Assembly: GCF_902506325.1 (NCBI RefSeq)
Contig: NZ_LR732330.1
Location: forward strand, 496,001-560,000
Direction of reading: 5' to 3'
Origin: Limnobacter sp. 130
GTDB lineage: Bacteria; Pseudomonadota; Gammaproteobacteria; Burkholderiales; Burkholderiaceae_B
DNA length: 64,000 nucleotides
How positions within the stretch are numbered: position 1 is the stretch's first letter; each line of letters starts with the position of its first letter. The position numbers were made by a program, and so were the translations under genes. Of this stretch, positions 1,308 to 17,133 are shown piece after piece. The notes below the pieces were generated by a model. It saw only the letters and a list, made by a program, of their open reading frames with translations, did not search any database and was not told the origin of the DNA.

Positions 1308-2999
1308 TCAGGCCGTTTGGTCTTGCAAGCGCTTCTTTTCCATGTCGCGAAGCTCCCTGCGCAACACCTTGCCCACCGGACTCTTGGGCAATTCCTTCAT
1401 GAATTCCACGTGACGGGGAATTTTATAAGCGGTCATGTGCTTGCGACAATGCTCAATCACCGCCTCGGCGGTCAAATCAGCATCCTTTTTGACCACAAAA
1501 AGCTTCACGGCCTCGCCTGTCTTTCCGTCGGGCACGCCCACAGCTGCCGCCTCGAAAATACCAGTGAGCAACGTGGCGACCGCTTCAATTTCCTTGGGGT
1601 ACACGTTAAAACCCGACACAAGGATCATGTCCTTTTTGCGATCGGTGATATAAAAATAACCGCTTTGATCCATGTAGGCGATGTCGCCGGTTTTCAACCA
1701 GCCGTCCTGCGTCAAAATCTCGGCAGTCTCGCGTGGCTTGTTCCAGTAGCCGCGCATAACCTGCGGGCCTTTTACGCACAATTCGCCCTCTTGCCCAACA
1801 GGCAATTCATTGAAATCATCGTCGCGAATGGTTACCTCGGTGGAAGGAACAGGCAGGCCGATCGAGCCGTTGTATTCCTCATGCAGCGGGTTAATACACA
1901 CGGCGGGTGATGCCTCGGTCAAGCCATAGGCTTCCGACAGGCGGGTACCAGTCACTTTCTTCCAGCGATCGGCCACAGCGGGCTCAATGGCCGCACCCCC
2001 GCCCAGCACCAACTTCACATGTGAAAAATCAACCTGCTCAAACCCGGGCGTATTCAGCAGCCCATTAAACAAAGTATTTACACCCGTCAATGCGGTGAAT
2101 GGCACAGCCGACAAGGTTTTAACAAATGTCTTCATGTTGCGCGGATCAGTAATCAATAGGCAATGCCCACCGACTTTGATGAATACCAGTATGTTCGCGG
2201 TCAGGCAGAAGATGTGGTACATCGGCAGCGCGGTAATGGCGATCTCCTTGCCTTCCTCAATGTCCTGATTCAACCAGGCTGATGCCTGCTGCAAGTTGGC
2301 CACAATATTGCCGTGAGTCAGCATGGCACCTTTGGCCACACCCGTGGTGCCCCCGGTGTATTGAAGAAAGGCCAGGTCGTCGTGAGTGATATTGACTTTG
2401 CGCAGCTCATTGTTGCGACCATGGGTCAAGGCTTTTTTGAAGGTAATGGCGCCGGCAATATTGAATGCTGGCACCAGCTTCTTCACATATCGCACTACAA
2501 AATTCAGCAACAAACGTTTGAAAAAGCCGTGCATTTCGCCCATTGAGGCCAGCACGATGTGCTCAACTGGGGTGTTTTTAATGACTTTTTCAAGGGTGTG
2601 GGCCACGTTCTCAAACACCACGATCACCTTGGCACCAGAATCGCGCAACTGGTGCTCCAATTCGGTGGGTGTGTACAGCGGGTTTACGTTTACCGCCACA
2701 AAGCCAGCGCGAATAGCGCCCAGCATCGCCACGGGGTATTGCAATAAATTGGGCATCATGAAGGCAACGCGGTCGCCTTTCTTCATGCCGGGCAGGCTTT
2801 GAAGGTAAGCCCCAAAGTCACGAGTCAGAGAATCGAGACGCTCATAGGTGAGCGCTGTACCCATGTTGCTGAAAGCAGTTTTGTCAGCGAACTTGCGACT
2901 GGCGTCCTCAAAAATATCCCGAATGGAGGGGTACTGATCCAAATCAACCGACGTGGGTACACCCGGTGGGTAGCTCTGAGCCCAGGCTTTATCTGTCAC
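1308..2999 (-). CDS. fadD: Long-chain fatty acid-CoA ligase
   Basis: A 563-residue AMP-forming acyl-CoA synthetase that activates free long-chain fatty acids with ATP and CoA for beta-oxidation or lipid synthesis. Visible motifs are the P-loop-like YTGGTTGVAKG at residues 214-224, the adenylate motif EAYGLTEASP, the GWLKTGDIAYMD hinge region and a C-terminal lysine motif SPVGKVLRRELR. Length matches E. coli FadD (561). It is followed at 1,308 by the ribosomal operon promoter region and preceded by the FFLEELY gene on the same strand. The neighbourhood supports a role in lipid turnover. Confidence 0.92.
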   Translation of the reverse strand: MTDKAWAQSYPPGVPTSVDLDQYPSIRDIFEDASRKFADKTAFSNMGTALTYERLDSLTRDFGAYLQSLPGMKKGDRVAFMMPNLLQYPVAMLGAIRAGFVAVNVNPLYTPTELEHQLRDSGAKVIVVFENVAHTLEKVIKNTPVEHIVLASMGEMHGFFKRLLLNFVVRYVKKLVPAFNIAGAITFKKALTHGRNNELRKVNITHDDLAFLQYTGGTTGVAKGAMLTHGNIVANLQQASAWLNQDIEEGKEIAITALPMYHIFCLTANILVFIKVGGHCLLITDPRNMKTFVKTLSAVPFTALTGVNTLFNGLLNTPGFEQVDFSHVKLVLGGGAAIEPAVADRWKKVTGTRLSEAYGLTEASPAVCINPLHEEYNGSIGLPVPSTEVTIRDDDFNELPVGQEGELCVKGPQVMRGYWNKPRETAEILTQDGWLKTGDIAYMDQSGYFYITDRKKDMILVSGFNVYPKEIEAVATLLTGIFEAAAVGVPDGKTGEAVKLFVVKKDADLTAEAVIEHCRKHMTAYKIPRHVEFMKELPKSPVGKVLRRELRDMEKKRLQDQTA

Positions 3000-3131: not shown

Positions 3132-3845
3132 TCAAGGAAATTTCGACAAGGTACCTTGTCGAATCCCTTCTAGTATGGACATCTCACGTTCTTGAATCAG
3201 TTGGAAAAAAAGGGTTGGCTTCTCAAGAGAGGCAAACGCATCCAGGCCCTGGCTTAAAAAATTGTGGAAATCCTCTAAATTGGCCTTTTGCGCTGCACCA
3301 CGCGTCATCTTCATCAAAGGTCTCAAAAAAGGCAGACGCATCAATTTGCGCAAGGATTCGCCCACTTCCCGAACCAGCAGAATTTGCCGCTCGCGCAATT
3401 CAAACTGCCCTTGTTCCCGAAAGGCGTTTATGTACAGCATTTCTTTAAGTGAATTATCAGAAAAAAACTCTTTATTACTGATAAATAGGGTTATTTCATC
3501 ATCCAGAAATTCCGCCAAATAGTCCATGTAAATCACTTTTCGCACGGTATCGACTGCGCCTGCGGGCAATAATTTTTCCAGTTTGGGCAACACTCTTTCC
3601 ACCTGGTGGTCTCGCATGCTGACATCATGTGTGCAGTACAGCTGATCGAGGAAAAAACGGCACGCAGCACGCATGCCATCATCTGCAAGCAAATCCTTAT
3701 ATGTTCCCTCTAATCGACTGTTTTGAAATACTTTTATTTCTTTCTTTAAATTCAGAAATTCAACTGAACGCCCCTGTCCTTGTCGAAGGGCTGTGATGGC
3801 TTTCTGTAATTCCAAGGGAGAACTGTGAATATCGATCATGGCCAT
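3132..3845 (-). CDS. FFLEELY-motif family protein, function unknown
   Basis: A 237-residue soluble, largely helical protein. Residues 63-70 (RFFLDQLY), followed by a Cys-Thr-His-Asp turn and an R-D..V.R..PKLEKLLP stretch, match the signature from which the FFLEELY family takes its name. To my knowledge that family has no assigned biochemical role and is found in proteobacteria. No signal peptide or membrane segment is visible. It is transcribed divergently from the Lao-like operon and lies upstream of fadD, so a link to lipid metabolism is likely but inferred. A long perfect palindrome covers its last codons. Confidence 0.7.
   Translation of the reverse strand: MAMIDIHSSPLELQKAITALRQGQGRSVEFLNLKKEIKVFQNSRLEGTYKDLLADDGMRAACRFFLDQLYCTHDVSMRDHQVERVLPKLEKLLPAGAVDTVRKVIYMDYLAEFLDDEITLFISNKEFFSDNSLKEMLYINAFREQGQFELRERQILLVREVGESLRKLMRLPFLRPLMKMTRGAAQKANLEDFHNFLSQGLDAFASLEKPTLFFQLIQEREMSILEGIRQGTLSKFP
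3142..3163. repeat. Perfect 22-base palindrome in the 3' end of the FFLEELY gene
   Basis: The arm TTCGACAAGGT is followed directly by its exact reverse complement, so all 22 bases are self-complementary. As RNA it would form a nine-pair stem with a four-base loop. It covers codons for the segment QGTLSK, ten bases before the stop. No T-run follows on either strand, so a simple intrinsic terminator is not shown. It could be a pause or processing hairpin, or a protein-binding site. Confidence 0.6.
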
Positions 3846-3880
3846 TGAATTGCAATTGCGTCATAAAGCTCCATGCTGTT

Positions 3881-3895
3881 TGCTGCATAGCAGCA
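3881..3895. promoter_or_regulatory. Inverted repeat between the FFLEELY gene and the aldehyde dehydrogenase
   Basis: TGCTGC and GCAGCA arms are separated by ATA in the 122-base divergent intergenic region. A second, imperfect dyad lies about 40 bases further right around TTTACAT and ATGTTAAA (near 3927-3949). Such symmetrical sites are candidates for a TetR-type operator controlling both directions. The regulator gene at 12,790 is a candidate, but there is no direct evidence. Confidence 0.35.
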
Positions 3896-3967
3896 CAAAT
3901 CAGACATGGAAAATAGTCAAAATTTATGTTTACATCCGTTAATGTTAAACCGGAGAGTGAGACAACA

Positions 3968-5422
3968 ATGAATGCCCCATCCAAAGCACACGGCCAAGAA
4001 TTGACAGCAGCAGAACTAAAAGCAACTTTGGAATCGTTAAAGCAAGCTTACCGCATCAATCCCTACCCGGAATGGAACCAGCGCAAAGCCTGGTTGATGG
4101 CGTTAAGCGACATGATTTATGACAACAAGCTTCGAATTGCAGACGCCATTTCTGAAGACTTTGGCTATCGCTCGAAAAACGACACGCTTCTGGCCGAGGT
4201 ATTTCCCTCCCTTGAAGGTATTCGCCACGCGATCAAGCACGGCAAGAGTTGGATGAAACCACGCAATCAAGGCGCCAGCATTTGGTTCAAGCCTGCGAGC
4301 ACTTGCCTGATGCCCCAACCGCTCGGCGTTGTGGGCGTGATCGTGCCCTGGAATTACCCCCTGTTTTTGTCAATCGGTCCCATGATTGCCGCACTGGCTG
4401 CAGGCAACCGTGTATTTATCAAAATGAGTGAGTACACCCCACGCTTCAGCGCTTTGCTCGATGAGTTATTGGCCAAAGCACTGGGTCGAGAAGTTGTGCA
4501 AGTCATCAACGGTGGTCCAGAGGTGGCAGCGGAGTTTTCACACCTTCCTTTCGATCACCTGCTGTTCACCGGTTCAACGCCTGTGGGTAAAATGGTGATG
4601 AAAGCCGCCAGTGAAAACCTGGTGCCCGTTACCCTGGAGTTGGGCGGCAAAAGCCCTGTGATTATTACTGCGCCCACCGCAGCCAATCCTGGCCGCTTTG
4701 ACAATGCGATTGCCCGTACCTTGTCTGGCAAGTCAATCAATGCCGGGCAAACCTGTATTGCACCCGACTACTTGATGGTTCCGGAAGGTTGTGAAGAACA
4801 GCTGATCCAACACGCCAAAGCAATTATTGACCGTCGCTTCCCGGACGGCATTCTGTCCAAAGACTTCACTGGCATTATTTCTGACCGCCACGCCACGCGC
4901 CTGCAACGCCTGATTGACGAAGCTGAGGAACAAGGTGCGCGCGTAGTGTCACTCATGAAAACTGCCGACAGCCCTGGCCGCAAAATCCCGATGACTCTGG
5001 TGTTCAATGCCAAGCCCGATTCCATGCTGATGCAAGAAGAAATTTTTGGTCCAGTGTTGCCAGTGATCACATACAAACGCCTGGATGAAGCGATTGATTA
5101 CATCAACGACCGCCCTCGCCCACTGGCCTTGTATTTGTTTGACGACGAATCAAAAACCCAAGACATGGTCATGAAACAAACCATTGCCGGTGGCGTGTGC
5201 CTGAACGAAACACTGTTCCACATTGCGCAGGAAAACCTGCCATTTGGTGGCGTGGGCGACTCGGGCATGGGTCACTACCATGGCAAATTTGGTTTTGACA
5301 CCATGACCAAACTGAAACCCATTTTCAAACAAAGCCGTTTCCACGTCATGGAAATGTTGTCCCCCCCGTATGACAACAAAATGTTCGCCTTCATGACCAA
5401 ACTGCTGACCCGCAAGGTATAA
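3968..5422 (+). CDS. NAD(P)-dependent aldehyde dehydrogenase, LaoC / coniferyl-aldehyde dehydrogenase type
   Basis: A 484-residue aldehyde dehydrogenase starting at the ATG at 3968 (MNAPSK). An upstream in-frame start at 3926 would add 14 residues but lacks a ribosome site. Motifs are PWNYP (127-131), ELGGKS (224-229, general-base Glu) and GQTCIAPDY with the catalytic Cys at about 263. The family is annotated as coniferyl-aldehyde dehydrogenase, but the order ALDH, Tat-signal small protein, GMC oxidoreductase is that of the P. aeruginosa lao cluster, where the enzyme oxidises long-chain fatty aldehydes. It begins a tight operon with the next three genes. Long-chain substrate is inferred from context. 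Confidence 0.88.
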   Translation: MNAPSKAHGQELTAAELKATLESLKQAYRINPYPEWNQRKAWLMALSDMIYDNKLRIADAISEDFGYRSKNDTLLAEVFPSLEGIRHAIKHGKSWMKPRNQGASIWFKPASTCLMPQPLGVVGVIVPWNYPLFLSIGPMIAALAAGNRVFIKMSEYTPRFSALLDELLAKALGREVVQVINGGPEVAAEFSHLPFDHLLFTGSTPVGKMVMKAASENLVPVTLELGGKSPVIITAPTAANPGRFDNAIARTLSGKSINAGQTCIAPDYLMVPEGCEEQLIQHAKAIIDRRFPDGILSKDFTGIISDRHATRLQRLIDEAEEQGARVVSLMKTADSPGRKIPMTLVFNAKPDSMLMQEEIFGPVLPVITYKRLDEAIDYINDRPRPLALYLFDDESKTQDMVMKQTIAGGVCLNETLFHIAQENLPFGGVGDSGMGHYHGKFGFDTMTKLKPIFKQSRFHVMEMLSPPYDNKMFAFMTKLLTRKV

Positions 5423-5433
5423 ACCGCCACCCC

Positions 5434-5949
5434 ATGAACAGACGTAAATTTTTCAAGCTTAGTGCCGCCGGCCTTTTAATGGCAGGCGGCTTGGGCTGGT
5501 TGGGCAAGCACTTTGCCCAGGTTGAAATTGTGGCGGGCCAATCGGTAGTACAGCCGCAGCACCTGCCCATGCTAAGGGCAATTGCAACAGGCTTGCTCGA
5601 CTCCGCCTTACCGGCTACCGGCCGCGCTGAAGCAATTGAAACGGCAGTGAACACATTTGTGAACGCCAGCAAAATGTTGGCAGCCAGCGCACAGGCTGAA
5701 CTGGGCCAATTACTGAACATTCTCGAAAACCCGGTGGGAAGAAGACTGATTGCAGATTTGGACAACAGCTGGGAAGATGCCACGCCAGCGCAAGTGCAAG
5801 CGTTTCTGTTCGCTTTTCGGGACCATCCAATTCCGGCACTGCAGCCTGGCTATCACGCGCTACACGATCTGATGATGGCTGGCTGGTACGGCCTTCCTGA
5901 GCAATGGGCTGACATGGGCTATCCTGGCCCTCCATTCAAGCTTTCCTGA
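5434..5949 (+). CDS. Tat-signal small subunit of a GMC dehydrogenase (LaoB-like)
   Basis: A 171-residue protein with a clear twin-arginine signal: N-R-R-K-F-F-K at residues 2-8, followed by a hydrophobic stretch with AAGLLMAGGLGWLG. The mature part resembles the gamma (subunit 3) proteins of gluconate 2-dehydrogenase-like enzymes, including an LHDLMMAGWYG segment near the C-terminus. It starts 11 bases after the aldehyde dehydrogenase and ends 24 bases before the GMC oxidoreductase. I infer that it escorts or assembles the signal-less flavoprotein. LaoB is needed for LaoA activity in P. aeruginosa (recalled from the literature). Confidence 0.75.
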   Translation: MNRRKFFKLSAAGLLMAGGLGWLGKHFAQVEIVAGQSVVQPQHLPMLRAIATGLLDSALPATGRAEAIETAVNTFVNASKMLAASAQAELGQLLNILENPVGRRLIADLDNSWEDATPAQVQAFLFAFRDHPIPALQPGYHALHDLMMAGWYGLPEQWADMGYPGPPFKLS

Positions 5950-5973
5950 CACGTATTACCACCCTGAAGACCA

Positions 5974-7617
5974 ATGACTGAACAAGAAATCAAGCCCATG
6001 AGCACATTGGTGCCAGACCTTTTCACAGCCGGCATTGCCAGTGGCTGGAATGCCTACGAAGCCCACAGCCGTGAAATGCCCAAACAAATGACTGCCGACG
6101 TGGTGATCATTGGCACGGGCGCGGGTGGTGGCATTACTGCTGAAATATGCGCCAAGGCTGGCTTGAAGGTTCTGCTGATCGAGGAAGGGCCACTTAAAAC
6201 CTCGAAAGATTTCAAGATGCTGGAATCTGAGGCCTACCCCACGTTGTACCAAGAAAGTGCTGCTCGCAAAACTGCTGACAAGGCAATCAATATTTTGCAA
6301 GGCCGCGCGGTGGGCGGGTCTACTACAGTGAACTGGACCTCCAGCTTCAGAACCCCAGCTGACACACTCGCATTTTGGCAAAACCAGTTCGCCTTGAAGG
6401 ACATGACCGTAGAGGCCATGGCACCTTGGTTTGAACAGGCTGAACGCCGTTTGAACATTGCTGACTGGTTGGTGCCACCCAATGAGAACAACGATATTTT
6501 GCGCCGAGGCGCTGAAGCAAAGGGCATTTCATGGGGCGCGATACGCCGCAACGTGAAAGACTGCTGGAACCTGGGCTACTGCGGCATGGGCTGCCCCACC
6601 AACGCCAAACAGTCCATGCTCGTGTCCACAATTCCGACCGCCCTGCAGCATGGTGCCGAACTGGTGGCTTCGCTTCGTGCACACTCATTCAAAATTGCGC
6701 AAGGCCGTATTCGCACACTGCGCTGTCAGGTCATGAACGCAGACGGCGTCTTGCCTTCCGGCAAGGAAGTTGAAGTCTCAGCCAAGCATTTTGTGCTGGC
6801 CGGTGGGTCCATCAATAGCCCCGCTGTGCTGTTGCGCTCGAATGCGAGCGACCCTTATGACCGCTTGGGCGAGCGTACCTTTTTGCACCCCGTTGTGATT
6901 TCCGCCGCCATGATGGAGCAGGAAGTGCGCGCAGATGCAGGTGCCCCCCAGACCATCTACAGCGACCACTACCTGCACACCGACCCGATCGACGGGCCTG
7001 TGGGCTTCAAGCTGGAAGCACCGCCCCTGCACCCGGTTATTTTTGCTTCGACTCTGCCTGGCTTTGCAAAAAAGCATGCAGACATCATGAAGAATTTCTC
7101 GAAAACGCACATGCAACTGGCCTTGCTGCGCGATGGTTTCAATTCAGGCAGCGTGGGTGGACAGGTGCGTTTGAACGGCGATGGCAGCCCTGTGCTGGAC
7201 TACAAATTAACCCCCGCAATTTGGGATGCTGCGCGCCGTGCATTGATAGCCATGGCCGAATTGCAACACGCTGCAGGTGCGAAATCTACCCTGCCCGTGC
7301 ATGAATTCGCCACACCGGCCAACAACATTGACGATGCATTGAAACAAATCAATCAACTCGACATGAAGCCCCTTAGCATGAAGGTGGTTTCAGCACACGT
7401 GATGGGCGGCTGCGCCATGGCTGGCGAAGAAAAGCTTGGGGTTACCCGGCCGGATGGCCGTCACTGGCAAATCGAAAACCTGTCCATTCACGACGGCTCG
7501 CTGTTCCCCACCAGCATCGGCGCAAACCCGCAGTTGTCCATCTATGGCCTCACCAATAAACTCAGCCAGCAACTGGTGGCCGAGTTGACTGGCCAAGCAG
7601 CCACGGCGCTGGCTTAA
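5974..7617 (+). CDS. GMC-family FAD oxidoreductase, probable long-chain alcohol dehydrogenase (LaoA-like)
   Basis: A 547-residue flavoprotein. The dinucleotide-binding motif IIGTGAGGG is at residues 45-53, a GMC signature GRAVGGSTTVNW follows at about 111-122, a Cys-rich segment CWNLGYCGMGCP lies near residue 200, and the C-terminal region has HVMGGCAMA and a GANPQLSIYGLTN motif expected for the catalytic His/Asn part. There is no signal peptide, in contrast to the Tat-signal protein just upstream. It would oxidise primary fatty alcohols to aldehydes and pass electrons to the respiratory chain. A cholesterol- or choline-dehydrogenase-like role cannot be excluded by sequence alone. Confidence 0.85.
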   Translation: MTEQEIKPMSTLVPDLFTAGIASGWNAYEAHSREMPKQMTADVVIIGTGAGGGITAEICAKAGLKVLLIEEGPLKTSKDFKMLESEAYPTLYQESAARKTADKAINILQGRAVGGSTTVNWTSSFRTPADTLAFWQNQFALKDMTVEAMAPWFEQAERRLNIADWLVPPNENNDILRRGAEAKGISWGAIRRNVKDCWNLGYCGMGCPTNAKQSMLVSTIPTALQHGAELVASLRAHSFKIAQGRIRTLRCQVMNADGVLPSGKEVEVSAKHFVLAGGSINSPAVLLRSNASDPYDRLGERTFLHPVVISAAMMEQEVRADAGAPQTIYSDHYLHTDPIDGPVGFKLEAPPLHPVIFASTLPGFAKKHADIMKNFSKTHMQLALLRDGFNSGSVGGQVRLNGDGSPVLDYKLTPAIWDAARRALIAMAELQHAAGAKSTLPVHEFATPANNIDDALKQINQLDMKPLSMKVVSAHVMGGCAMAGEEKLGVTRPDGRHWQIENLSIHDGSLFPTSIGANPQLSIYGLTNKLSQQLVAELTGQAATALA

Positions 7618-7622
7618 GTACC

Positions 7623-8633
7623 ATGGTTCGCTACCTGAACAGGCTGTACTGGATTGGCTACATTTCAGTCATGTTCAGCCTTTACTGGGCACTTCACCAT
7701 TGGCTCGGTATTCGGGCCGACAACGCTGCAGTGGCCGCCATGGCCCTGGTAGTCGGCGTATTGTTTGCCGCACATGTGGGCTTTAACATCTCGGGCTTCG
7801 CCCTTTCTTACAGCGTGCGTCAAATTCCGCAAGTCCGCGACAAGGGGCTTCACTTTCACAGCACCGAAGGGGAAGGATTTCACCGGCTTGGTCTTGCTCG
7901 CTGGATCAAGGCCGTGTTGGTAGAAAGTATCGCTTCGCTAAAACTGATCACCCTGTTACAACCCTGGGCCCCGAATCCCGACGGTATTCAATTGGCTGGC
8001 AAGGCTTGGCGCAGGAAAAAACCTCTACCTGTGCTATTGGTGCATGGCTATTTGTGCAACTCGGCGGTTTGGGCTGGAACCCGAACCCTGCTTGAACGAG
8101 CCGACGTGACTACACACGCAATTACGCTTGAACCTACGATTGGCTCGATTCGCAGCTACTCCGACACGATTCACGAGGCGATTGATGAATTATTGGTGGC
8201 GACAGGCGCCCCCCAAGTCAAAATAATTGCACACAGCATGGGCGGAGTCGCTGTGCGCTACCACGCCACCGAGTACGGGCACCATCGCATTGCCGGTATG
8301 ATTACAATTGGCAGTCCGCATTACGGCACAGCCTTGTCTACCTTCGGTATTGGCAAGAATGTGAAGCAAATGGCCTGGGGAAGTTTTTTCTTGAATACGC
8401 TGCGGGAACACCCGACAGACCGAGAATTTCAGAACAAGATCTGGTCGCTGTGGAGCCCACAAGACAACATGGTGTGTCCACCGGTTTCCAGCAAACTGGA
8501 GTTTGGAAAAAACATCGCCGTGCCCGGATGCGGGCACGTGGCTTTGGTGACAGATTCCACCACGGAAGACCTGATTCTCAACTGGCTTGCAGAAGATGCT
8601 CAGGCCTATCCGTTGGCAGAAAACAGGGCTTAG
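7623..8633 (+). CDS. Membrane-anchored alpha/beta-hydrolase lipase
   Basis: A 336-residue protein with two hydrophobic segments (about residues 9-30 and 36-60) followed by an alpha/beta-hydrolase domain. The oxyanion-hole motif LLVHGYLCNS is at 138-147, the nucleophile elbow AHSMGG at 203-208 (Ser205), and a late GCGHVALVTD gives the likely catalytic His. It resembles triacylglycerol lipases that act on the cytoplasmic side of membranes or on granules. It starts five bases after the GMC stop, so it belongs to the same operon, and its stop codon overlaps that of the convergent fatty acyl-CoA reductase in a TTAG tetranucleotide. Confidence 0.85.
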   Translation: MVRYLNRLYWIGYISVMFSLYWALHHWLGIRADNAAVAAMALVVGVLFAAHVGFNISGFALSYSVRQIPQVRDKGLHFHSTEGEGFHRLGLARWIKAVLVESIASLKLITLLQPWAPNPDGIQLAGKAWRRKKPLPVLLVHGYLCNSAVWAGTRTLLERADVTTHAITLEPTIGSIRSYSDTIHEAIDELLVATGAPQVKIIAHSMGGVAVRYHATEYGHHRIAGMITIGSPHYGTALSTFGIGKNVKQMAWGSFFLNTLREHPTDREFQNKIWSLWSPQDNMVCPPVSSKLEFGKNIAVPGCGHVALVTDSTTEDLILNWLAEDAQAYPLAENRA

Positions 8634-10615
8634 AAGTGGATACCTTGCATCAGGGTTGAGAAGGCAACCTGCTCTGCAGATGGCCCACCACCCTTCTTGC
8701 CCTTCGCCGCAGATTCCGAATCCGGGAACATGCGGAACGAGGTATTCATCAAAATTTGCGCAGGCTTCGGTATCAGCGCATGCATTACCTGACCCAACAC
8801 ACCCAGGCGCGTTGCAATTCGAACCGGCTTGTGAATGACCGCTTGCGCAATCAAATCAGCTGCCTGCTCAGGACTCAGCGTGGGCACATTGTTGTACAGC
8901 TTGGTGGGCGCGATCATGGGTGTGCGCACCAGCGGCATGTTGATGGTGGTGAAAGTAATGTTCAAATCCGCAAATTCAGAAGCTGCACAACGCGTCCATG
9001 CATCCAGCGCCCCTTTGGAAGCCACATAGGCAGAGAAGCGAGGCGCGTTGGTCAACACACCAATTGAAGAAATATTCACCACATGGCCTTTGCGCTTTTC
9101 CATCATTTTTGGCAACAAACCGTAGGTAACACGCAAGGCACCAAAGTAATTCAGCTGCATGGTTCGCTCCAGGTCATGGAAACGGTCAAAGCTGTTTTCA
9201 ATACCCCGGCGAATTGAACGACCCGCGTTGTTCACCAACACATCGACATGGCCGAAATCAGACAGCAATTGCGCAACGAATCGGTCGCAATCCTGCATGT
9301 CCGCAATGTCGACAGAATAAGTGTGCAGCGTGTTGCCTTCTGATTTGATCAAGGCCTTGGCCTCAGCCAGCTTTTCTTCATCGCGGCCACAAATAATGGT
9401 AATTGCACCCGCTGCCGCAAATTTTTGCGCAGCAGCCAAACCAATACCGGATGAACCACCAGTAATAAGCACCACCTTGTCTTTCACCTGGCCTGTCAGG
9501 CTGCGGTCGATGAACAAATCGGGATCCAGGTGACGTTCCCAGTAATCCCAAATGGCCCAAGCGTAGTCTTCAAGACGCGGGCACTCAATGCCACTGCCGT
9601 CCAGTGCAGCCAAAGTTTGGCGACAGTCGTATCGGGTTGGCCAGTTAATGTAACCAAACACCTCTTCGGGCAGGGCCAAATCTTTCAGCAAGGCATTGCG
9701 AATTCGGCGCACTGGGGTCAGGCTCATCAGCCCCTTCTTCACTGCACCAGGTACAAAACCGAACATGGCCGCATTAATGCGCATTTCCATTTTCGGTGCA
9801 TGTGCAGCACGCGCAAAAATGTTCAGTACATCGCCAATTCGATTGGGGCTGGGGTCAACAAGGTGGAATGCCTTACCGTCCAGATCAGGCTGGTGCGCAA
9901 TGTGATCCATGGCATTGACCACAAAATCCACAGGCACAATATTGATTCGACCGCCTTCGATACCGATCGTAGGCACCCAGGAAGGCAGTAGCTTGCGCAT
10001 TTTCTGGATCAACTTGAACAGGTAATAGGGTCCGTCAATTTTGTCCATCTCGCCAGTTTTCGAATCACCCACCACAAAGCCCGGCCGGTACACACGCCAT
10101 GCGCCTTTTACTTTCTTGCGCACAATTTCTTCTGAATCGTGTTTGGTGCTGAAATAAGGGTGATCCAGGTTCTCGGCCTCTTCGAACATGTCCTCACGGA
10201 ACACGCCTTCGTACAAGCCAGCAGCCGCAATCGAGGAAGTCAGCTGAAAGCAGCCGGCTCCAATTGCATTGGCCAAATCCACCGCGTTTTCGGTGCCTTT
10301 GATATTGGTTTCTTGCTGGCTTTCGGCATCCGCAGCCAAATCATAAATGGCAGCCAGGTGAAAAAAGTGGGCAATATTCTTGTTTAGCTCCTTGATTTCA
10401 GTGGCTTTCAAACCCAACTTTGGTTTGGTCAAGTCACCAACCACAGGCACGCACTGCCCTTTCTTGGCACCCCAATACTTTTGGAGTTCGGGCACTTTGT
10501 CCAGACTCGATTCGCGAATCAAAAAGTAAATGGTGCCTTTGCGCTTTTGCTCAACCAAGCGTTTCACCAATCGTTTACCGATGAAGCCCGTGGCTCCGGT
10601 CACAAAATAATTCAT
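8630..10615 (-). CDS. Fatty acyl-CoA reductase, two-domain, alcohol-forming
   Basis: A 661-residue protein, the same length I recall for Marinobacter Maqu_2507, and closely similar to my memory of that sequence over its full length. The N-terminal extended-SDR domain has TGATGFIG at 6-13 and an active-site Y154xxxK158. The C-terminal classical SDR domain has TGGSSGIG at 385-392, NNAG at 462-465 and Y530xxxK534 with Ser517. Both halves keep catalytic residues, as expected for reduction of acyl-CoA through an aldehyde to a fatty alcohol with NADPH. This is the first step of wax ester formation. It is convergent with the lipase and divergent from the phasin gene. Confidence 0.88.
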   Translation of the reverse strand: MNYFVTGATGFIGKRLVKRLVEQKRKGTIYFLIRESSLDKVPELQKYWGAKKGQCVPVVGDLTKPKLGLKATEIKELNKNIAHFFHLAAIYDLAADAESQQETNIKGTENAVDLANAIGAGCFQLTSSIAAAGLYEGVFREDMFEEAENLDHPYFSTKHDSEEIVRKKVKGAWRVYRPGFVVGDSKTGEMDKIDGPYYLFKLIQKMRKLLPSWVPTIGIEGGRINIVPVDFVVNAMDHIAHQPDLDGKAFHLVDPSPNRIGDVLNIFARAAHAPKMEMRINAAMFGFVPGAVKKGLMSLTPVRRIRNALLKDLALPEEVFGYINWPTRYDCRQTLAALDGSGIECPRLEDYAWAIWDYWERHLDPDLFIDRSLTGQVKDKVVLITGGSSGIGLAAAQKFAAAGAITIICGRDEEKLAEAKALIKSEGNTLHTYSVDIADMQDCDRFVAQLLSDFGHVDVLVNNAGRSIRRGIENSFDRFHDLERTMQLNYFGALRVTYGLLPKMMEKRKGHVVNISSIGVLTNAPRFSAYVASKGALDAWTRCAASEFADLNITFTTINMPLVRTPMIAPTKLYNNVPTLSPEQAADLIAQAVIHKPVRIATRLGVLGQVMHALIPKPAQILMNTSFRMFPDSESAAKGKKGGGPSAEQVAFSTLMQGIHF

Positions 10616-10860
10616 GTATGTCTTCTCCGCGCGGGGTTTTTTATGGAAGATACGTCTCAGGAAGGCTTACTATAACTGCCCGCCCGAAATTCTCAAACTC
10701 CATGCGGGCTGTGCGGGTGTTTTGTCAGCACCCTGCTTACGGGAAAACACGAGGTAGGGTTTAGTGTGCCTTCTCTAGTGTGGCCTCGATAAACTACTAC
10801 AATAATCAAAAAAGGCAGCGACCCGCGACGGGTCACTTTGCCATCACAAGGAGAGACAAC

Positions 10861-11310
10861 ATGGCCGGTAAGAAAAAGCCCATCAAAGGTGCAGTCGATA
10901 GCGCACAACAATTGTGGACCGCAGGTGTGGGCGCCATTACCAAAGCGCAAGAAGAAAGCAACCGTGTTTTGGAAAACCTGGTCAAGGAAGGCCATGATAT
11001 TCAGGAGCGAACCGTGAAATTTGCAGATCAAAAAGTAGTTGAAGTAACCGGCAAGGTCAGCAAGCTGGCAGGCTCAGTATCCAGCAAAGCCACCCAACAC
11101 TGGGACAAGCTTGAACAAGTATTCGAGGAACGCGTAGCCCGCGCCTTGGGTCGCTTGGGTGTTCCTACCAACAAAGACGTTCAACAATTGTCTGAACGTA
11201 TTGATCAATTGTCTGCTGCCATTGCCGAATTGACAGGCAAAAAAGCAGAAACCAAAGCAGGCACTGCAAAGCGCACCAGCACCACGCGTGCCAAAAAATC
11301 TGCTGAGTAA
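10861..11310 (+). CDS. Phasin-family granule-associated protein (PhaI/PhaF type)
   Basis: A 149-residue protein started at the ATG at 10861, eight bases after an AAGGAGAG Shine-Dalgarno. An earlier frame opening at 10780 lacks one. The first about 120 residues form amphipathic and coiled-coil helices typical of the polyhydroxyalkanoate granule-associated family, including a VARALGRLGVPTNKDVQQLS segment that recurs in PhaI/PhaF proteins. The last about 25 residues are Lys/Ala/Thr-rich. Such proteins coat storage granules and can bind DNA through basic tails. It lies divergent from the acyl-CoA reductase, suggesting a granule role for this locus. Confidence 0.85.
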   Translation: MAGKKKPIKGAVDSAQQLWTAGVGAITKAQEESNRVLENLVKEGHDIQERTVKFADQKVVEVTGKVSKLAGSVSSKATQHWDKLEQVFEERVARALGRLGVPTNKDVQQLSERIDQLSAAIAELTGKKAETKAGTAKRTSTTRAKKSAE

Positions 11311-11319
11311 TTGAATCAA

Positions 11320-11353
11320 TTGTTGACCGGGCCAACGACGGCCTTGTCAACAA
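11320..11353 (+). terminator. Strong stem-loop between phasin and patatin genes
   Basis: Arms TTGTTGAC and GTCAACAA enclose an inner GGCC/GGCC stem with a six-base loop. It starts ten bases after the phasin stop and ends 28 bases before the patatin start. There is no T-run after it, so it may be a partial terminator or an RNA-stabilising hairpin that lets phasin be made in excess over the phospholipase. Confidence 0.5.
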
Positions 11354-11381
11354 ACGCTTTGGGCTGGAGCACACAACCCGC

Positions 11382-12635
11382 ATGAACAATCACGAATCTG
11401 GCCCGAAAATCGGGTTGGCCTTGGCAGGTGGCGGCCCCTTGGGCGCCATTTATGAAATTGGTGCATTGGTCGCGCTTTCAGAGGCCATCGATGGACTCGA
11501 TCTGAACGACATGAGTGTCTATGTGGGTGTATCTGCTGGCGGAATTGTTGCCACCGGGTTGGCGCACGATCTGACTCCACACCAAATCTACAAGCTGTTC
11601 ATTGAAGGCGAACCCGAAGAGTTTGCCTTTGATCCGTCGATTTTGTTGCGTCCGGCCTGGAAAGAGTACTGGATGCGCCTTAGAAAGGTACCCAGCCTTC
11701 TGGGCACTGCCATTTCAGACTATTTCCTGCGCGATGACGCCACTTGGGTCAGCTGCATTGAACGCTTGGGCGCAGCAATACCCACTGGCTTGTTCAATGG
11801 CGACGAATTGCACGAATGGATGGCGGACCTGATCGCCAAAGGCGGTGGTACCAACGATTTCCGCAGTTTGCGCAACCGGCTTATTTTGGTGGCGACCGAC
11901 CTGGATTCAGGCGACTCCATCCCCTTCGGAATGCCCGGGTTTGATGACGTTCCCATATCAAAAGCTGTGCAAGCCTCTGCATCCCTGCCCGGCTTGTTTC
12001 CGCCCACGCGCATTGCCAATCGGCACTATGTAGATGGGGCGTTGAAAAAAACCCTGCATGCCTCCACAGCCTTAAAAGAAGGTGTGGAGTTACTGATTTG
12101 CCTGAACCCCTTGGTACCGTACGATGACCGGTTAAACCCCAAAAACCATCGGCGCAGGGCCAAGGGCAAAGCATTTCAGCCCGGATCGCGTTTATACGAA
12201 GGCGGATTGCCGCTGGTGCTCTCGCAAACGTTTAGATCAATTATTCATTCACGCATGGACATTGGCATGGAGCGCTACGCGCACCTTTATCCCAATGCTG
12301 ACATTGTGCTGTTTGAACCCCAACATGGCGATGGCGAATTTTTCTTCACCAACCCTTTCAGCTACGCAAGCCGCCGACGTTTGTGTGAGCATGCCTACCA
12401 ACGCACGCGCGAAGAATTGTGGGCACGCCGTTACGATTTGGCAGAGAAGTTTTCGCGACATGGTCTTGAACTGAATCTGGAAGTTCTGAAAGATCCCACC
12501 ATGCAGCTGGCCAACAAAACCAGCAAAAGACCAGCACGTACTGGATCCATGGTGTCCAAATTTGATCAACTTGAAGACTCGCTCAACGAGCTTGATCGTT
12601 ACATACGTATTGCAAAAACAAGAAATGCTGCGTGA
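11382..12635 (+). CDS. Patatin-like phospholipase / lipid acyl hydrolase
   Basis: A 417-residue patatin-domain protein. The oxyanion-hole motif GGGPLG is at residues 17-22, the nucleophile motif GVSAG at 49-53 (Ser51), and the catalytic Asp lies in the motif HYVDGALKKT. No signal peptide is seen, so it probably acts in the cytoplasm, on membrane lipid or on stored lipid. It follows the phasin gene on the same strand, which fits a role in mobilising granule lipid. The substrate cannot be read from the sequence. Confidence 0.87.
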   Translation: MNNHESGPKIGLALAGGGPLGAIYEIGALVALSEAIDGLDLNDMSVYVGVSAGGIVATGLAHDLTPHQIYKLFIEGEPEEFAFDPSILLRPAWKEYWMRLRKVPSLLGTAISDYFLRDDATWVSCIERLGAAIPTGLFNGDELHEWMADLIAKGGGTNDFRSLRNRLILVATDLDSGDSIPFGMPGFDDVPISKAVQASASLPGLFPPTRIANRHYVDGALKKTLHASTALKEGVELLICLNPLVPYDDRLNPKNHRRRAKGKAFQPGSRLYEGGLPLVLSQTFRSIIHSRMDIGMERYAHLYPNADIVLFEPQHGDGEFFFTNPFSYASRRRLCEHAYQRTREELWARRYDLAEKFSRHGLELNLEVLKDPTMQLANKTSKRPARTGSMVSKFDQLEDSLNELDRYIRIAKTRNAA

Positions 12636-12706
12636 AGAACGCCATTACTCACAAGTAACAAGGGCAGTGAGGCCCCAAATACTTGATAAAACAACGTAGA
12701 CTAATA

Positions 12707-12719
12707 GTATTCAAAATAC
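12707..12719. promoter_or_regulatory. Small inverted repeat upstream of the TetR regulator gene
   Basis: GTATT and AATAC arms separated by CAA lie about 70 bases before the regulator's start codon, in an AT-rich stretch likely to hold its promoter. TetR-type repressors often bind such a site in their own upstream region. The dyad is short, so it may be chance. Confidence 0.25.
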
Positions 12720-12789
12720 CAATAACAGACTTGCTGCATGAAGTCTTAAGCTTGATCAGGACTTTGGCCAGACAGGAGACGACCAGAAC

Positions 12790-13458
12790 ATGGAACGCAA
12801 GCCTCCAAGAAGAACAAGAGAACGAATTCTTGATTTATCGCTTCGGCTATTCAATGAATTCGGGGAGCCCAATATTACAACTACCGTGATCGCTGATGAA
12901 ATGAACATCAGCCCCGGTAATTTGTATTATCACTTCCGAAACAAAGACGACATCGTCAACAGTATTTTTGCCAGTTTCGAGAAAGAAATTGATGGTCTGC
13001 TCGACGTACCCGGCAACCGCCAAGCCAATATCGAAGATGCCTGGCTTTACCTTCAGGTGTCATTTGAGCTGATTTGGCGCTATCGATTCCTGTACCGCGA
13101 CTTGAACGATCTGTTGTCGCGCAACCGCACACTCGAAATCCATTTCAAACGCATTCTGAAACACAAAGTTGATGTGGCACGCCGCTTGTGTCAAGGCTTG
13201 GTGGAATCGGGTGACATGATGGCATCCCAGCCACAAATCAATGCCTTGGCCACCAACATGGTGGTTGTAGCCACTTACTGGCTGTCATTCGAATACGTCA
13301 GGGACCCGCGCCACTTCAACGATGAAGCCACCATGAGTGCTGCGCTGGCCAACGGTGTGTATCAGGTCATGTGCCTGCTCGCACCCTATTTACAAGGCAA
13401 TGCCAAAGAACTGTTCGAAAGCCTTGCCCAATCTTTTATTACTGAAGAAAACACATAA
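12790..13458 (+). CDS. TetR-family transcriptional regulator
   Basis: A 222-residue regulator. The N-terminal helix-turn-helix spans about residues 10-56 and contains TTTVIADEMNISPGNLYYHF, a typical TetR recognition region. The remaining about 165 residues form the helical ligand-binding domain. It sits 18 bases before the acyl-CoA-binding protein gene, and the two are probably cotranscribed. An acyl-CoA or fatty acid ligand, and control of the neighbouring lipid genes, are plausible by analogy with LaoR, PsrA and FadR-like TetR proteins, but not shown. Confidence 0.88.
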   Translation: MERKPPRRTRERILDLSLRLFNEFGEPNITTTVIADEMNISPGNLYYHFRNKDDIVNSIFASFEKEIDGLLDVPGNRQANIEDAWLYLQVSFELIWRYRFLYRDLNDLLSRNRTLEIHFKRILKHKVDVARRLCQGLVESGDMMASQPQINALATNMVVVATYWLSFEYVRDPRHFNDEATMSAALANGVYQVMCLLAPYLQGNAKELFESLAQSFITEENT

Positions 13459-13476
13459 CAAGACTTAGGAGAACTT

Positions 13477-13731
13477 ATGAGCGACTTGAAAGCCCGTTTC
13501 GAAAAGGCAGTGGCCGAATCAAAATCACTGCCGTCACGCCCCGACAATCAGACCCTGTTGAAGATTTATGCTTTGTTCAAGCAATCAACCGAAGGTGACA
13601 ACACCGGAAAACGCCCAGGGTTCACCGACATTGTTGGCCGCGCAAAGTTTGACGCGTGGAAGGGCCTGGAAGGCACCAGCAACGATCAAGCCATGCAGAA
13701 TTACATTGATCTGATTGAGTCGCTGAAATAA
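13477..13731 (+). CDS. Acyl-CoA-binding protein
   Basis: An 84-residue protein of the eukaryotic-type ACBP family. It shows the conserved YALFKQSTEGDN segment and the K-F-D-A-W core followed by a G-x-S-x-x-x-A-M-x-x-Y-I motif near the C-terminus. These four-helix proteins bind medium- and long-chain acyl-CoA and buffer or deliver them. They are patchily distributed in bacteria. A TTAGGAGA Shine-Dalgarno precedes the ATG. It follows the TetR gene and closes the lipid region, with a strong terminator after it. Confidence 0.92.
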   Translation: MSDLKARFEKAVAESKSLPSRPDNQTLLKIYALFKQSTEGDNTGKRPGFTDIVGRAKFDAWKGLEGTSNDQAMQNYIDLIESLK

Positions 13732-13750: not shown

Positions 13751-13780
13751 AAAAAAAACCGGCCAATGGCCGGTTTTTTT
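13751..13780. terminator. Bidirectional intrinsic terminator
   Basis: AACCGGCC-AAT-GGCCGGTT stem flanked by an A-run on the left and a T-run on the right, so it can work on both strands. It separates the convergent acyl-CoA-binding protein gene and the ArsR regulator. The stop codon of the latter begins inside the T-run. Confidence 0.92.
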
Positions 13781-14123
13781 ATGGCTGCTTGAAAAAATCA
13801 GGCAGCTGCCTGGAGTCGACAGGCACGGCGTCTAGCTTGGCCGCCACATGCACACACACGGTTCGGCAAAGCTCCACCACTGTCGGCTCCTTTACCTGGT
13901 ATAGCACCAAGGTGCCTTCTTTGCGGCGCTGTAACACGCCTGCACGGTACATCAAGTTCAAATGACGAGAAATATTCGACTGGGTTGAATCAACCTCTTC
14001 CACGATGTCGTTTACTGATTTTTCCCCGTTGCACAGGGCGTGGATAATTTTCAAACGCGTGGGTTCAGACAACACAGCAAAGTAGCCTGACACTTGTTCC
14101 AGCAGGGAATCCAGTTCACTCAT
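13779..14123 (-). CDS. ArsR-family transcriptional regulator
   Basis: A 114-residue winged helix-turn-helix protein started at the ATG at 14123 (MSELDSLLEQ). An earlier frame opening at 14174 adds 17 residues without a better ribosome site. The HTH includes LSEPTRLKIIHALCNGEKS and QSNISRHLNLMYRAGVL. A later Cys-Arg-Thr-Val-Cys pair near the C-terminus might bind a metal or thiol, but the classic ArsR ELCVCD metal site is absent. Targets are unknown. It is followed on the left by the shared terminator and lies downstream of prfC. Confidence 0.85.
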   Translation of the reverse strand: MSELDSLLEQVSGYFAVLSEPTRLKIIHALCNGEKSVNDIVEEVDSTQSNISRHLNLMYRAGVLQRRKEGTLVLYQVKEPTVVELCRTVCVHVAAKLDAVPVDSRQLPDFFKQP

Positions 14124-16046: not shown

Positions 16047-17027
16047 ATGAAAGCAATTCTGGCAAAATCCGCCGTTGCAATCAGCCTGGCCGCGTTGGCC
16101 ATGGGTGCAGCTTACGCAGACAAATCCAAATGGCCCAAAAGCTTTACCGTAGGTACAGCTTCTCAGGGCGGTACGTATTACGCATATGGCGCTGGCTGGG
16201 CAAACCTGGTTGCAGAAACTGTGGGCATTACCGGCGGCGCGGAAGTTACTGGCGGCCCCACTCAAAACCTCGCTTTGGTACACACAGGTAAACTTGCCTT
16301 TGGCATGACCACCATGGGCCCAGCGCGCGAGGCACTGGACGGCAAAAGCCCCCTGGCCCCCGGCCTGAAGATGAACAAGGTATGCGCCATGTTCCCCATG
16401 TACCAAACCCCGTTCTCGGTCACCGTGCTGTCCTCCAGTGGAATCAAATCCATTAAGGAGATTCCACCTGGCTCCAAAATCGGTTTTGGCCCTGCAGGTT
16501 CTACCTCTGACACCTACTTCCCGAAAATGCTGGAAACCCTGGGCGTGAAATTTGAACGCCGCAACGGTGGCTGGAGCGATTTGGGCGGGCAATTGCAAGA
16601 TGGCCTGATCGATGTGGTGGCATTTGCAGCCGGTGTACCCATTCCTGCCGTGACCCAGCTTGAGGTGCAGACCGAGATCAATATTCTGGAATTTACAGAA
16701 GCTGAACAGAAAAAGATCATGGACACCTACCCCGTGTCGGCATTCCCGATCAAGGCCAGCACTTACAAAACCTTGAAGAAAGATGCACGTGCGGTATCCA
16801 TGTGGAACTACGCCATTGCCAACTGCGACCTGCCAGAAAGCTTTGTATACGAAGCGACAAAGGCGGTGCTGGACAACAACGAGAAAATGTTGACCATCCA
16901 CAAAGGTGCCCGCACCACATTGGCCGAGAACTGGGACAAGAACACATTCATCCCATTCCACCCCGGTGCCGTGAAGTATTACGAAGAAAAAGGCATCAAG
17001 ATTCCAGCGAATCTTAAGTTGAAATAA
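16047..17027 (+). CDS. TAXI-family TRAP transporter solute-binding protein
   Basis: A 326-residue periplasmic protein with a Sec signal (about residues 1-24, cut after GAAYA). The mature part begins with the TAXI family pattern FTVGTASQGGTYYAYGAGWA and contains GPAGSTSDTYF. It captures a substrate, probably a carboxylate, for the sodium-driven TRAP permease encoded next. A stem-loop between the two genes can set the usual excess of binding protein over permease. The substrate is unknown. Confidence 0.92.
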   Translation: MKAILAKSAVAISLAALAMGAAYADKSKWPKSFTVGTASQGGTYYAYGAGWANLVAETVGITGGAEVTGGPTQNLALVHTGKLAFGMTTMGPAREALDGKSPLAPGLKMNKVCAMFPMYQTPFSVTVLSSSGIKSIKEIPPGSKIGFGPAGSTSDTYFPKMLETLGVKFERRNGGWSDLGGQLQDGLIDVVAFAAGVPIPAVTQLEVQTEINILEFTEAEQKKIMDTYPVSAFPIKASTYKTLKKDARAVSMWNYAIANCDLPESFVYEATKAVLDNNEKMLTIHKGARTTLAENWDKNTFIPFHPGAVKYYEEKGIKIPANLKLK

Positions 17028-17057
17028 AAAGCAAACAGCCTTGACGGCTGAATCGGG

Positions 17058-17093
17058 AAGCGCTGAACTCAACTCAAGAGTTCAGCGCTTTTC
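17058..17093 (+). terminator. Attenuating terminator between binding protein and permease genes
   Basis: AAGCGCTGAACTC and GAGTTCAGCGCTT, a perfect 13-base stem with a seven-base loop, followed by TTCTT. It lies in the gap between two genes that must be expressed together, so it probably gives partial termination. Confidence 0.75.
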
Positions 17094-17133
17094 TTAAACC
17101 TCAATTCTCAATTTTTTTTGAATCGGTCAAATC

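Follow-up and report, generated by a model that had tools for sequence, protein, structure and literature searches.

What does the lipid locus at positions 3132-13731 of a 64,000-nucleotide stretch of the Limnobacter sp. 130 genome (contig NZ_LR732330.1; the whole stretch is called the window here) do, and what might its FFLEELY motif protein contribute? The genes run in the order FadD-type ligase and FFLEELY protein (minus strand), class 3 aldehyde dehydrogenase (ALDH3)/small twin-arginine translocation (Tat) protein/GMC oxidoreductase/lipase (plus strand), fatty acyl-CoA reductase (FAR, minus strand), and phasin/patatin/TetR/acyl-CoA-binding protein (ACBP, plus strand). A preliminary description had read the stretch as a fatty alcohol/neutral-lipid locus whose two halves form a reversible cycle; the FFLEELY gene (3132-3845) lies within that stretch and is absent from its text. 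We consider it probable that the locus is a conserved Burkholderiales storage-lipid island (wax ester or triacylglycerol, TAG) with the FFLEELY protein as an accessory. The gene families, gene order, conservation and co-occurrence reported below were established directly.

Co-occurrence of the FFLEELY protein with WS/DGAT and FAR

Two hundred Burkholderiales genomes were searched for FAR (E ≤ 1e-120), for wax ester synthase/diacylglycerol acyltransferase (WS/DGAT; E ≤ 1e-10) and for the FFLEELY protein (E ≤ 1e-5). FAR was found in 27 genomes, WS/DGAT in 29, both in 26, and the FFLEELY protein in 30. Carriers of the FFLEELY protein are exactly the genomes with FAR, WS/DGAT or both: it was detected in 30/30 such genomes and in 0/170 of the rest. 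Three carriers (G083, G159 and G195) have WS/DGAT without FAR. Counted by listed genus, the FFLEELY protein and WS/DGAT occur in an identical set of 15 out of 108 genera; each was found in 0/14 control genomes.

A class survey of 185 genomes (FAR at E ≤ 1e-80) gave seven genomes with the FFLEELY protein, 12 with WS/DGAT and eight with FAR; five of the FFLEELY carriers lie outside Burkholderiales, and WS/DGAT is present in four and FAR in three of these. Among 85 genomes of the order to which G369 belongs, the FFLEELY protein was found in 14, WS/DGAT in 83 and FAR in 79. All 14 carriers there have WS/DGAT and 13 have FAR, which is weak evidence alone because nearly all genomes of this order have both enzymes; two genomes of its family f212 without WS/DGAT are also without the FFLEELY protein and FAR. 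Among all 466 distinct genomes, 46/48 FFLEELY carriers have WS/DGAT and 42/48 have FAR. In L152 (G069) and G464:C106 the FFLEELY gene is broken into two frames or pieces, by either a frameshift or an assembly error.

Gene neighborhoods and predicted structure of the FFLEELY protein

In 18 of the 27 FAR genomes the FFLEELY and FAR genes share a contig; they lie within 10.3 kb of each other in 13 (source genome included) and within 33 kb in 17, whereas G049 has 3.2 Mb between them. We examined 28 Burkholderiales neighborhoods, that is the 30 carriers minus the window and G152 (incomplete flank). A relative of another island gene was found within 10 kb in 26/28. The partners were phasin (17), patatin (16), FAR (10), WS/DGAT (10), lipase (9), ALDH (7), FadD (7), GMC (5), LaoB-like small protein (5), TetR (5) and ACBP (3). 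No island-gene relative was found within 10 kb in G163 and G198, the latter at a contig end. The FFLEELY gene is divergent from an ALDH gene of 46-51% identity in L150-L152 and L134 (G113, G189, G069 and G055). Outside Burkholderiales, a strictosidine-synthase-like gene stands directly before the FFLEELY gene in G369 (L164 8838-10001), and an acyl-CoA dehydrogenase gene adjoins it in G365 (L163 7779-9560).

The window protein is a member of NCBIfam NF047641 (189 bits, cut-off 55), whose description gives no function, and no Pfam family matched it. Its structure model is all-helical and confident (pLDDT 90.8, pTM 0.87), hydropathy indicates no transmembrane-like segments, and an alignment of 48 sequences (not the same set as the 48 carrier genomes) contains conserved polar residues. 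Comparison with the PDB gave a best profile E of 0.15 and a best Foldseek E of 0.39, with no Foldseek match at E ≤ 0.001; the best VIA match (Z 5.3) is at chance level for helical bundles according to the tool's note, and no function was read from it. The fold may be a known one that the searches missed. From co-occurrence and gene neighborhoods, the FFLEELY protein probably serves storage-lipid metabolism as a dedicated accessory. A more specific proposal, which we hold to be evenly balanced, is that it is an unrecognized component of bacterial wax ester/TAG metabolism: a soluble helical protein partnering WS/DGAT or the droplet surface, fixed across those Burkholderiales that have WS/DGAT or FAR and kept by some Gammaproteobacteria outside that order.

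Layout of the Limnobacter locus

Gene families were assigned by Pfam and NCBIfam profile matches, and coordinates are window positions.

1308-2999, minus strand: FadD-type long-chain acyl-CoA ligase (PF00501/PF13193), behind the FFLEELY gene and in the same direction
3132-3845, minus strand: FFLEELY motif protein (NF047641), predicted all-helical
3926-5422, plus strand: class 3 aldehyde dehydrogenase (ALDH3 type; PF00171 and PDB relatives)
5434-5949, plus strand: LaoB-like small protein with twin-arginine motif MNRRKFFK (RRxFxK in the alignment)
5974-7617, plus strand: GMC oxidoreductase, LaoA-like (PF00732 and PF05199)
7623-8633, plus strand: alpha/beta hydrolase, lipase-like (PF00561), with a hydrophobic stretch at 30-61 by hydropathy and an AHSMGG nucleophile region in the translation
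8630-10615, minus strand: two-domain FAR of AcrB/PRK07201 type (PF07993 at 5-236, PF00106 at 380-570)
10861-11310, plus strand: phasin (PF05597, 133 bits, cut-off 28.8; TIGR01837, 94.2 bits, just under its cut-off of 94.7)
11382-12635, plus strand: patatin-like lipase/phospholipase (PF01734, 92 bits; GVSAG at 49, DG at 218)
12790-13458, plus strand: TetR-type regulator (PF13972 and PF00440)
13477-13731, plus strand: ACBP (PF00887, 99 bits)
13757-13781 (approximate), no strand: GC-rich hairpin and T run in the ACBP/ArsR intergenic region, a likely terminator seen by eye and absent from the pattern-scan list

The profiles confirmed the earlier gene calls, families and orientations from ALDH through ACBP. 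For phasin, the sequence makes ATG 10861, behind an AGGAG-like site, a more likely start than the earlier GTG 10780. The best NCBIfam matches of the FadD-type ligase are long-chain acyl-CoA ligases, all below cut-off among the matches listed (NF006442, 834.6 against 1023; NF006523 FadD, 820.2 against 884), and the closest PDB relatives of the lipase are Bacillus lipase A (E 2.9e-9). The ALDH, LaoB-like, GMC and lipase genes are operon-like, since the gaps between them are only 11, 24 and 5 bases; lipase and FAR meet tail to tail with a 4-base overlap. Between 2900 and 14200 there are 10 promoter-like sites against 8.7 in shuffles, no usable signal, and 26 terminator-like sites against 15.4. 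Beyond RF3, an apparent TAXI-type TRAP transporter pair (16047-19323, translations by eye) is unrelated to the lipid locus.

The FAR is a full-length match to the model of AcrB, which we take to be Maqu_2507 (PRK07201/AcrB, NF005539; 978.7 bits, cut-off 549, residues 1-661). Both domains carry YxxxK, the motif of short-chain dehydrogenases/reductases (SDRs): YFSTK at 154 and YVASK at 530, among four such matches. This agrees with the alcohol-forming type proposed earlier, as a predicted function.

Conservation of the gene set in relatives

The FAR survey of public genomes covered the best 80 of at least 586 confirmed relatives. Flanks reached at most 10 kb and many were ended by contig ends, so absences apply within the flanks only; presence means similarity to the window protein over at least 40% of its length. 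Limnobacter sp. P1 and L. alexandrii have FARs with 99% identity to the window FAR, and Limnobacter-titled loci span 84-99%. Ten loci are of Limnobacter type (L003-L012, some of them metagenome-assembled genomes without that name). FAR, lipase, phasin, patatin, TetR and ACBP are present in 10/10, the FFLEELY protein, ALDH and FadD in 9/10 (the contig of L005 ends first), and GMC and the LaoB-like protein in 8/10. In L011, L012 and L145, also of Limnobacter type, GMC and the LaoB-like protein are gone with ALDH and lipase still in place, and ALDH and lipase are therefore independent of GMC there. The other 70 FAR loci contain phasin in 70, TetR in 62, patatin in 42, ACBP in 16, lipase in eight, GMC, the LaoB-like protein and the FFLEELY protein in six each, ALDH in two and FadD in none. 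FAR and phasin are thus paired in 80/80 loci; they are always divergent, with a gap above 400 bases only in L082. The arrangement is beyond chance because it is kept in the ten Limnobacter-type loci (apart from the losses in L005, L011 and L012) and because of the invariant FAR-phasin pair.

A profile search of the source genome (3.28 Mb, 6 contigs) detected two WS/DGAT genes (PF03007; E 7.5e-72 and 8.9e-68), both on another contig (C3) and both encoding HHxxxDG (HHSLMDG and HHALVDG). Within the flanks of the 80 FAR loci, WS/DGAT was found in 17. In Quisquiliibacterium transsilvanicum DSM 29781 (L014), a cluster of about 12 kb runs ACBP, WS/DGAT (536 aa, HHCIADG), TPR protein, TetR, patatin, phasin, FAR, lipase, GMC, LaoB-like protein and FFLEELY protein. 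It has no ALDH or FadD gene and, except for these two, WS/DGAT and the TPR protein, is collinear (inverted) with the window locus. G010 (L130) has the order ACBP, WS/DGAT, TetR, patatin, phasin, FAR, lipase, GMC, LaoB-like protein, FFLEELY protein. These gene orders make it probable that the window locus is the Limnobacter version of a neutral-lipid island of Burkholderiales. Most simply, Limnobacter would have inherited the island, with WS/DGAT now encoded elsewhere in its genome; independent assembly is possible.

The preliminary description had proposed looking for a wax ester synthase elsewhere in the genome and for the gene set in other Burkholderiales. The former was found twice; of the latter, parts recur, and GMC, the LaoB-like protein and lipase stand beside FAR in 14/80 loci. 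Its reading as a fatty alcohol/neutral-lipid locus is supported by the families, the WS/DGAT genes and the recurrence in Burkholderiales.

The putative oxidation half: ALDH, LaoB-like protein, GMC and lipase

PDB relatives of the ALDH include class 3 ALDH, a steroid aldehyde dehydrogenase (9nxl, 317 bits), a fatty aldehyde dehydrogenase (4qgk, 281 bits) and benzaldehyde enzymes. The LaoB-like gene adjoins GMC in 23/24 GMC loci from the search of the 200 Burkholderiales genomes, the exception being the incomplete flank of L105. Its product has RRxFxK in 15/15 aligned sequences, and 13/15 members match the Tat signal PF10518 at E ≤ 1. A known dehydrogenase small subunit was sought in the LaoB-like protein, but the window protein matched no Pfam family, and most members match the Tat signal only. 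The LaoB model is helical (pLDDT 77.6; first 18 residues below 50); its best PDB profile match has E 0.22, Foldseek gave no match at E ≤ 0.001, and the best VIA match, with ATP synthase, has Z 5.4 over 72 residues. For GMC, no signal peptide is visible by eye in the sequence (no prediction program was run), and none of the NCBIfam matches listed is to a model called Lao; all 130 matches of GMC to plasmid records are below 60% identity and none was used. If the LaoB-GMC pair works like LaoAB, the twin-arginine motif suggests that the alcohol-oxidizing half would act in a compartment other than that of a cytoplasmic granule.

GMC was found in 23 of the 200 Burkholderiales genomes. It is enriched with the FFLEELY protein (17/30 versus 6/170, Fisher 4e-12 with ancestry ignored). 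A tree of 42 GMCs places the Limnobacter sequences, with support 98/91, in a group with L013, L016 and L033 (Oxalobacteraceae), with L014, L015 and L022 (other Burkholderiaceae), all FFLEELY/lipase-linked, and with L084 of G120, which is assigned to no linkage group. FFLEELY-linked GMCs of other genomes fall in other parts of the tree, and the linkage, with five changes, does not mark one clade.

Weighing of alternative readings

Several observations weigh against a storage-lipid island with a FFLEELY accessory. The window LaoB-like protein itself gave no PF10518 match in the Pfam search of 15 LaoB-like proteins (E ≤ 1), and our confidence is slightly lowered by this and by the FFLEELY-linked GMCs not being one clade. 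The ALDH and GMC families also hold steroid and aromatic enzymes. The Fisher values for the FFLEELY protein in the 200 genomes (4e-34 versus WS/DGAT, 2e-30 versus FAR) ignore common descent, and the neighborhood count of 26/28 stands without a random-gene background; five of the 26 positives (G049, G113, G189, G069 and G002) have no partner other than ALDH, FadD or lipase, all members of large families. One FAR genome, G052 (84% complete), yielded no WS/DGAT, and G285 has the FFLEELY protein (G285:C3:209030-209629) with neither FAR nor WS/DGAT found. Island genes do not stand beside the FFLEELY gene in the five neighborhoods outside Burkholderiales (L162-L166), except for a FadD/acyl-CoA-ligase-like gene (33% to FadD) about 9 kb away in L162 (G285). 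Finally, the FFLEELY protein is missing from 74 of the 120 WS/DGAT genomes among the 466 surveyed. Outside Burkholderiales the relation is therefore one-way: most carriers have WS/DGAT, but many WS/DGAT genomes do without the FFLEELY protein, and a general requirement of WS/DGAT for it was rejected.

A possible, though doubtful, alternative is that the ALDH/LaoB/GMC/lipase operon serves catabolism of exogenous alcohols or esters (wax, surfactant, steroid or aromatic) and is a mere neighbor of the island. The six GMC genomes without the FFLEELY protein also have neither FAR nor WS/DGAT, and all have the LaoB-like protein, five with ALDH too (L089, L092-L094 and L103; L104 is without it). This independence, the steroid aldehyde dehydrogenase among the best ALDH relatives and the scatter of FFLEELY-linked GMCs would suit such an operon, whereas the enrichment of GMC in FFLEELY genomes and the well-supported group joining Limnobacter to FFLEELY/lipase-linked loci argue for a tie to the island.

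That phasin, and hence the FAR-phasin pair, serves polyhydroxyalkanoate (PHA) granules instead of wax ester/TAG droplets appears improbable: PF05597 is described as a PHA-granule-associated family, but FAR tracks WS/DGAT in 26/27 FAR genomes, and reductases of this kind are not known to take part in making PHA.

Slighter still are the prospects of one reversible acyl-CoA/alcohol/aldehyde/acid cycle at a storage granule, for which speak the enzymes of both directions within one 10-kb stretch and the presence of GMC, LaoB-like protein and lipase near FAR outside the Limnobacter-type loci (L013-L016, L022 and L033), but GMC and the LaoB-like protein were not found in 2/10 Limnobacter-type and 64/70 other FAR loci (flanks often incomplete) that keep the FAR-phasin pair, the ALDH beside the FFLEELY gene in G069, G113, G189 and G055 occurs in genomes with no GMC match at E ≤ 1e-30, and the twin-arginine motif in all LaoB-like proteins would separate the compartments if the pair works like LaoAB, which the title of a paper in the reference list of PMC10779009 calls a Tat-dependent dehydrogenase in P. 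aeruginosa. As stated, the cycle is not supported, since the oxidation half is dispensable and the Tat motif suggests another compartment; the preliminary description was right in outline and overdrawn in mechanism.

Relation to known systems

In Pseudomonas aeruginosa, LaoABC oxidizes long-chain alcohols, and LaoR is a TetR-type regulator encoded adjacent to the operon. The LaoABCR system is treated in PMC6107682 and PMC10779009. The window locus resembles it in having GMC, a small Tat-type protein and ALDH adjacent in one operon-like stretch (3926-7617); it differs in the added lipase, in facing FAR and in its TetR gene, which is separated from the operon by FAR, phasin and patatin. According to PMC11948995, which used PRK07201 as the profile for AcrB, this reductase accompanies WS/DGAT in 94% of cases. 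The Limnobacter FAR shares with this type the full-length equivalog match, YxxxK in both domains and co-occurrence with WS/DGAT, but it is not beside WS/DGAT and is paired with phasin and patatin.

Closest in gene content are WS/DGAT neighborhoods of Burkholderiales from sediment metagenomes (PMC10351704), which contain an adjacent ACBP gene, a MAQU_2507-like SDR (about 59% identity) and phasin, all three common to the window locus; the portion of the article consulted names no GMC/LaoB, ALDH or FFLEELY protein, and patatin has 0 occurrences in the text. It was the sole match judged relevant for the gene combination. Our literature search found no paper containing the word FFLEELY, none with NF047641 or the word Limnobacter among the matches listed, and by title and abstract none on a wax ester partner protein. 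The combination, which the preliminary description had not seen described as one system, is thus in print in part, for ACBP, reductase and phasin near WS/DGAT. As far as the searches tell, the linkage of the LaoAB-like/lipase half to the storage island and the link of the FFLEELY protein to WS/DGAT and FAR are new. We concluded that the locus represents a system of known type, more complete here than described before, plus one uncharacterized family.

Proposed scheme and implications

From the sequences we infer every reaction and compartment of the storage-lipid island, and the role of the FFLEELY protein, as follows. FadD would activate fatty acids, ACBP would buffer the acyl-CoA, and the AcrB-type FAR would reduce acyl-CoA to fatty alcohol. 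WS/DGAT, encoded in the island in some relatives and at two other genome sites in Limnobacter, would join alcohol and acyl-CoA to wax ester, and phasin would coat the inclusion. Patatin and the membrane lipase may free acyl groups and alcohols. A Tat-exported LaoB-GMC pair could oxidize long-chain alcohols, external or leaked, to aldehydes, which the ALDH3 would convert to acids re-entering via FadD. The FFLEELY protein would be a dedicated soluble accessory, acting as a WS/DGAT partner, droplet-surface protein or regulator.

The GMC/LaoB half raises the question of where alcohols are oxidized relative to where lipid is stored. The 12-kb cluster of Q. transsilvanicum provides a compact set for reconstruction. 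The FFLEELY protein has no Pfam entry and matches the distribution of WS/DGAT and FAR exactly across the 200 Burkholderiales genomes; as a candidate new component of bacterial storage-lipid metabolism, it can be tested directly.

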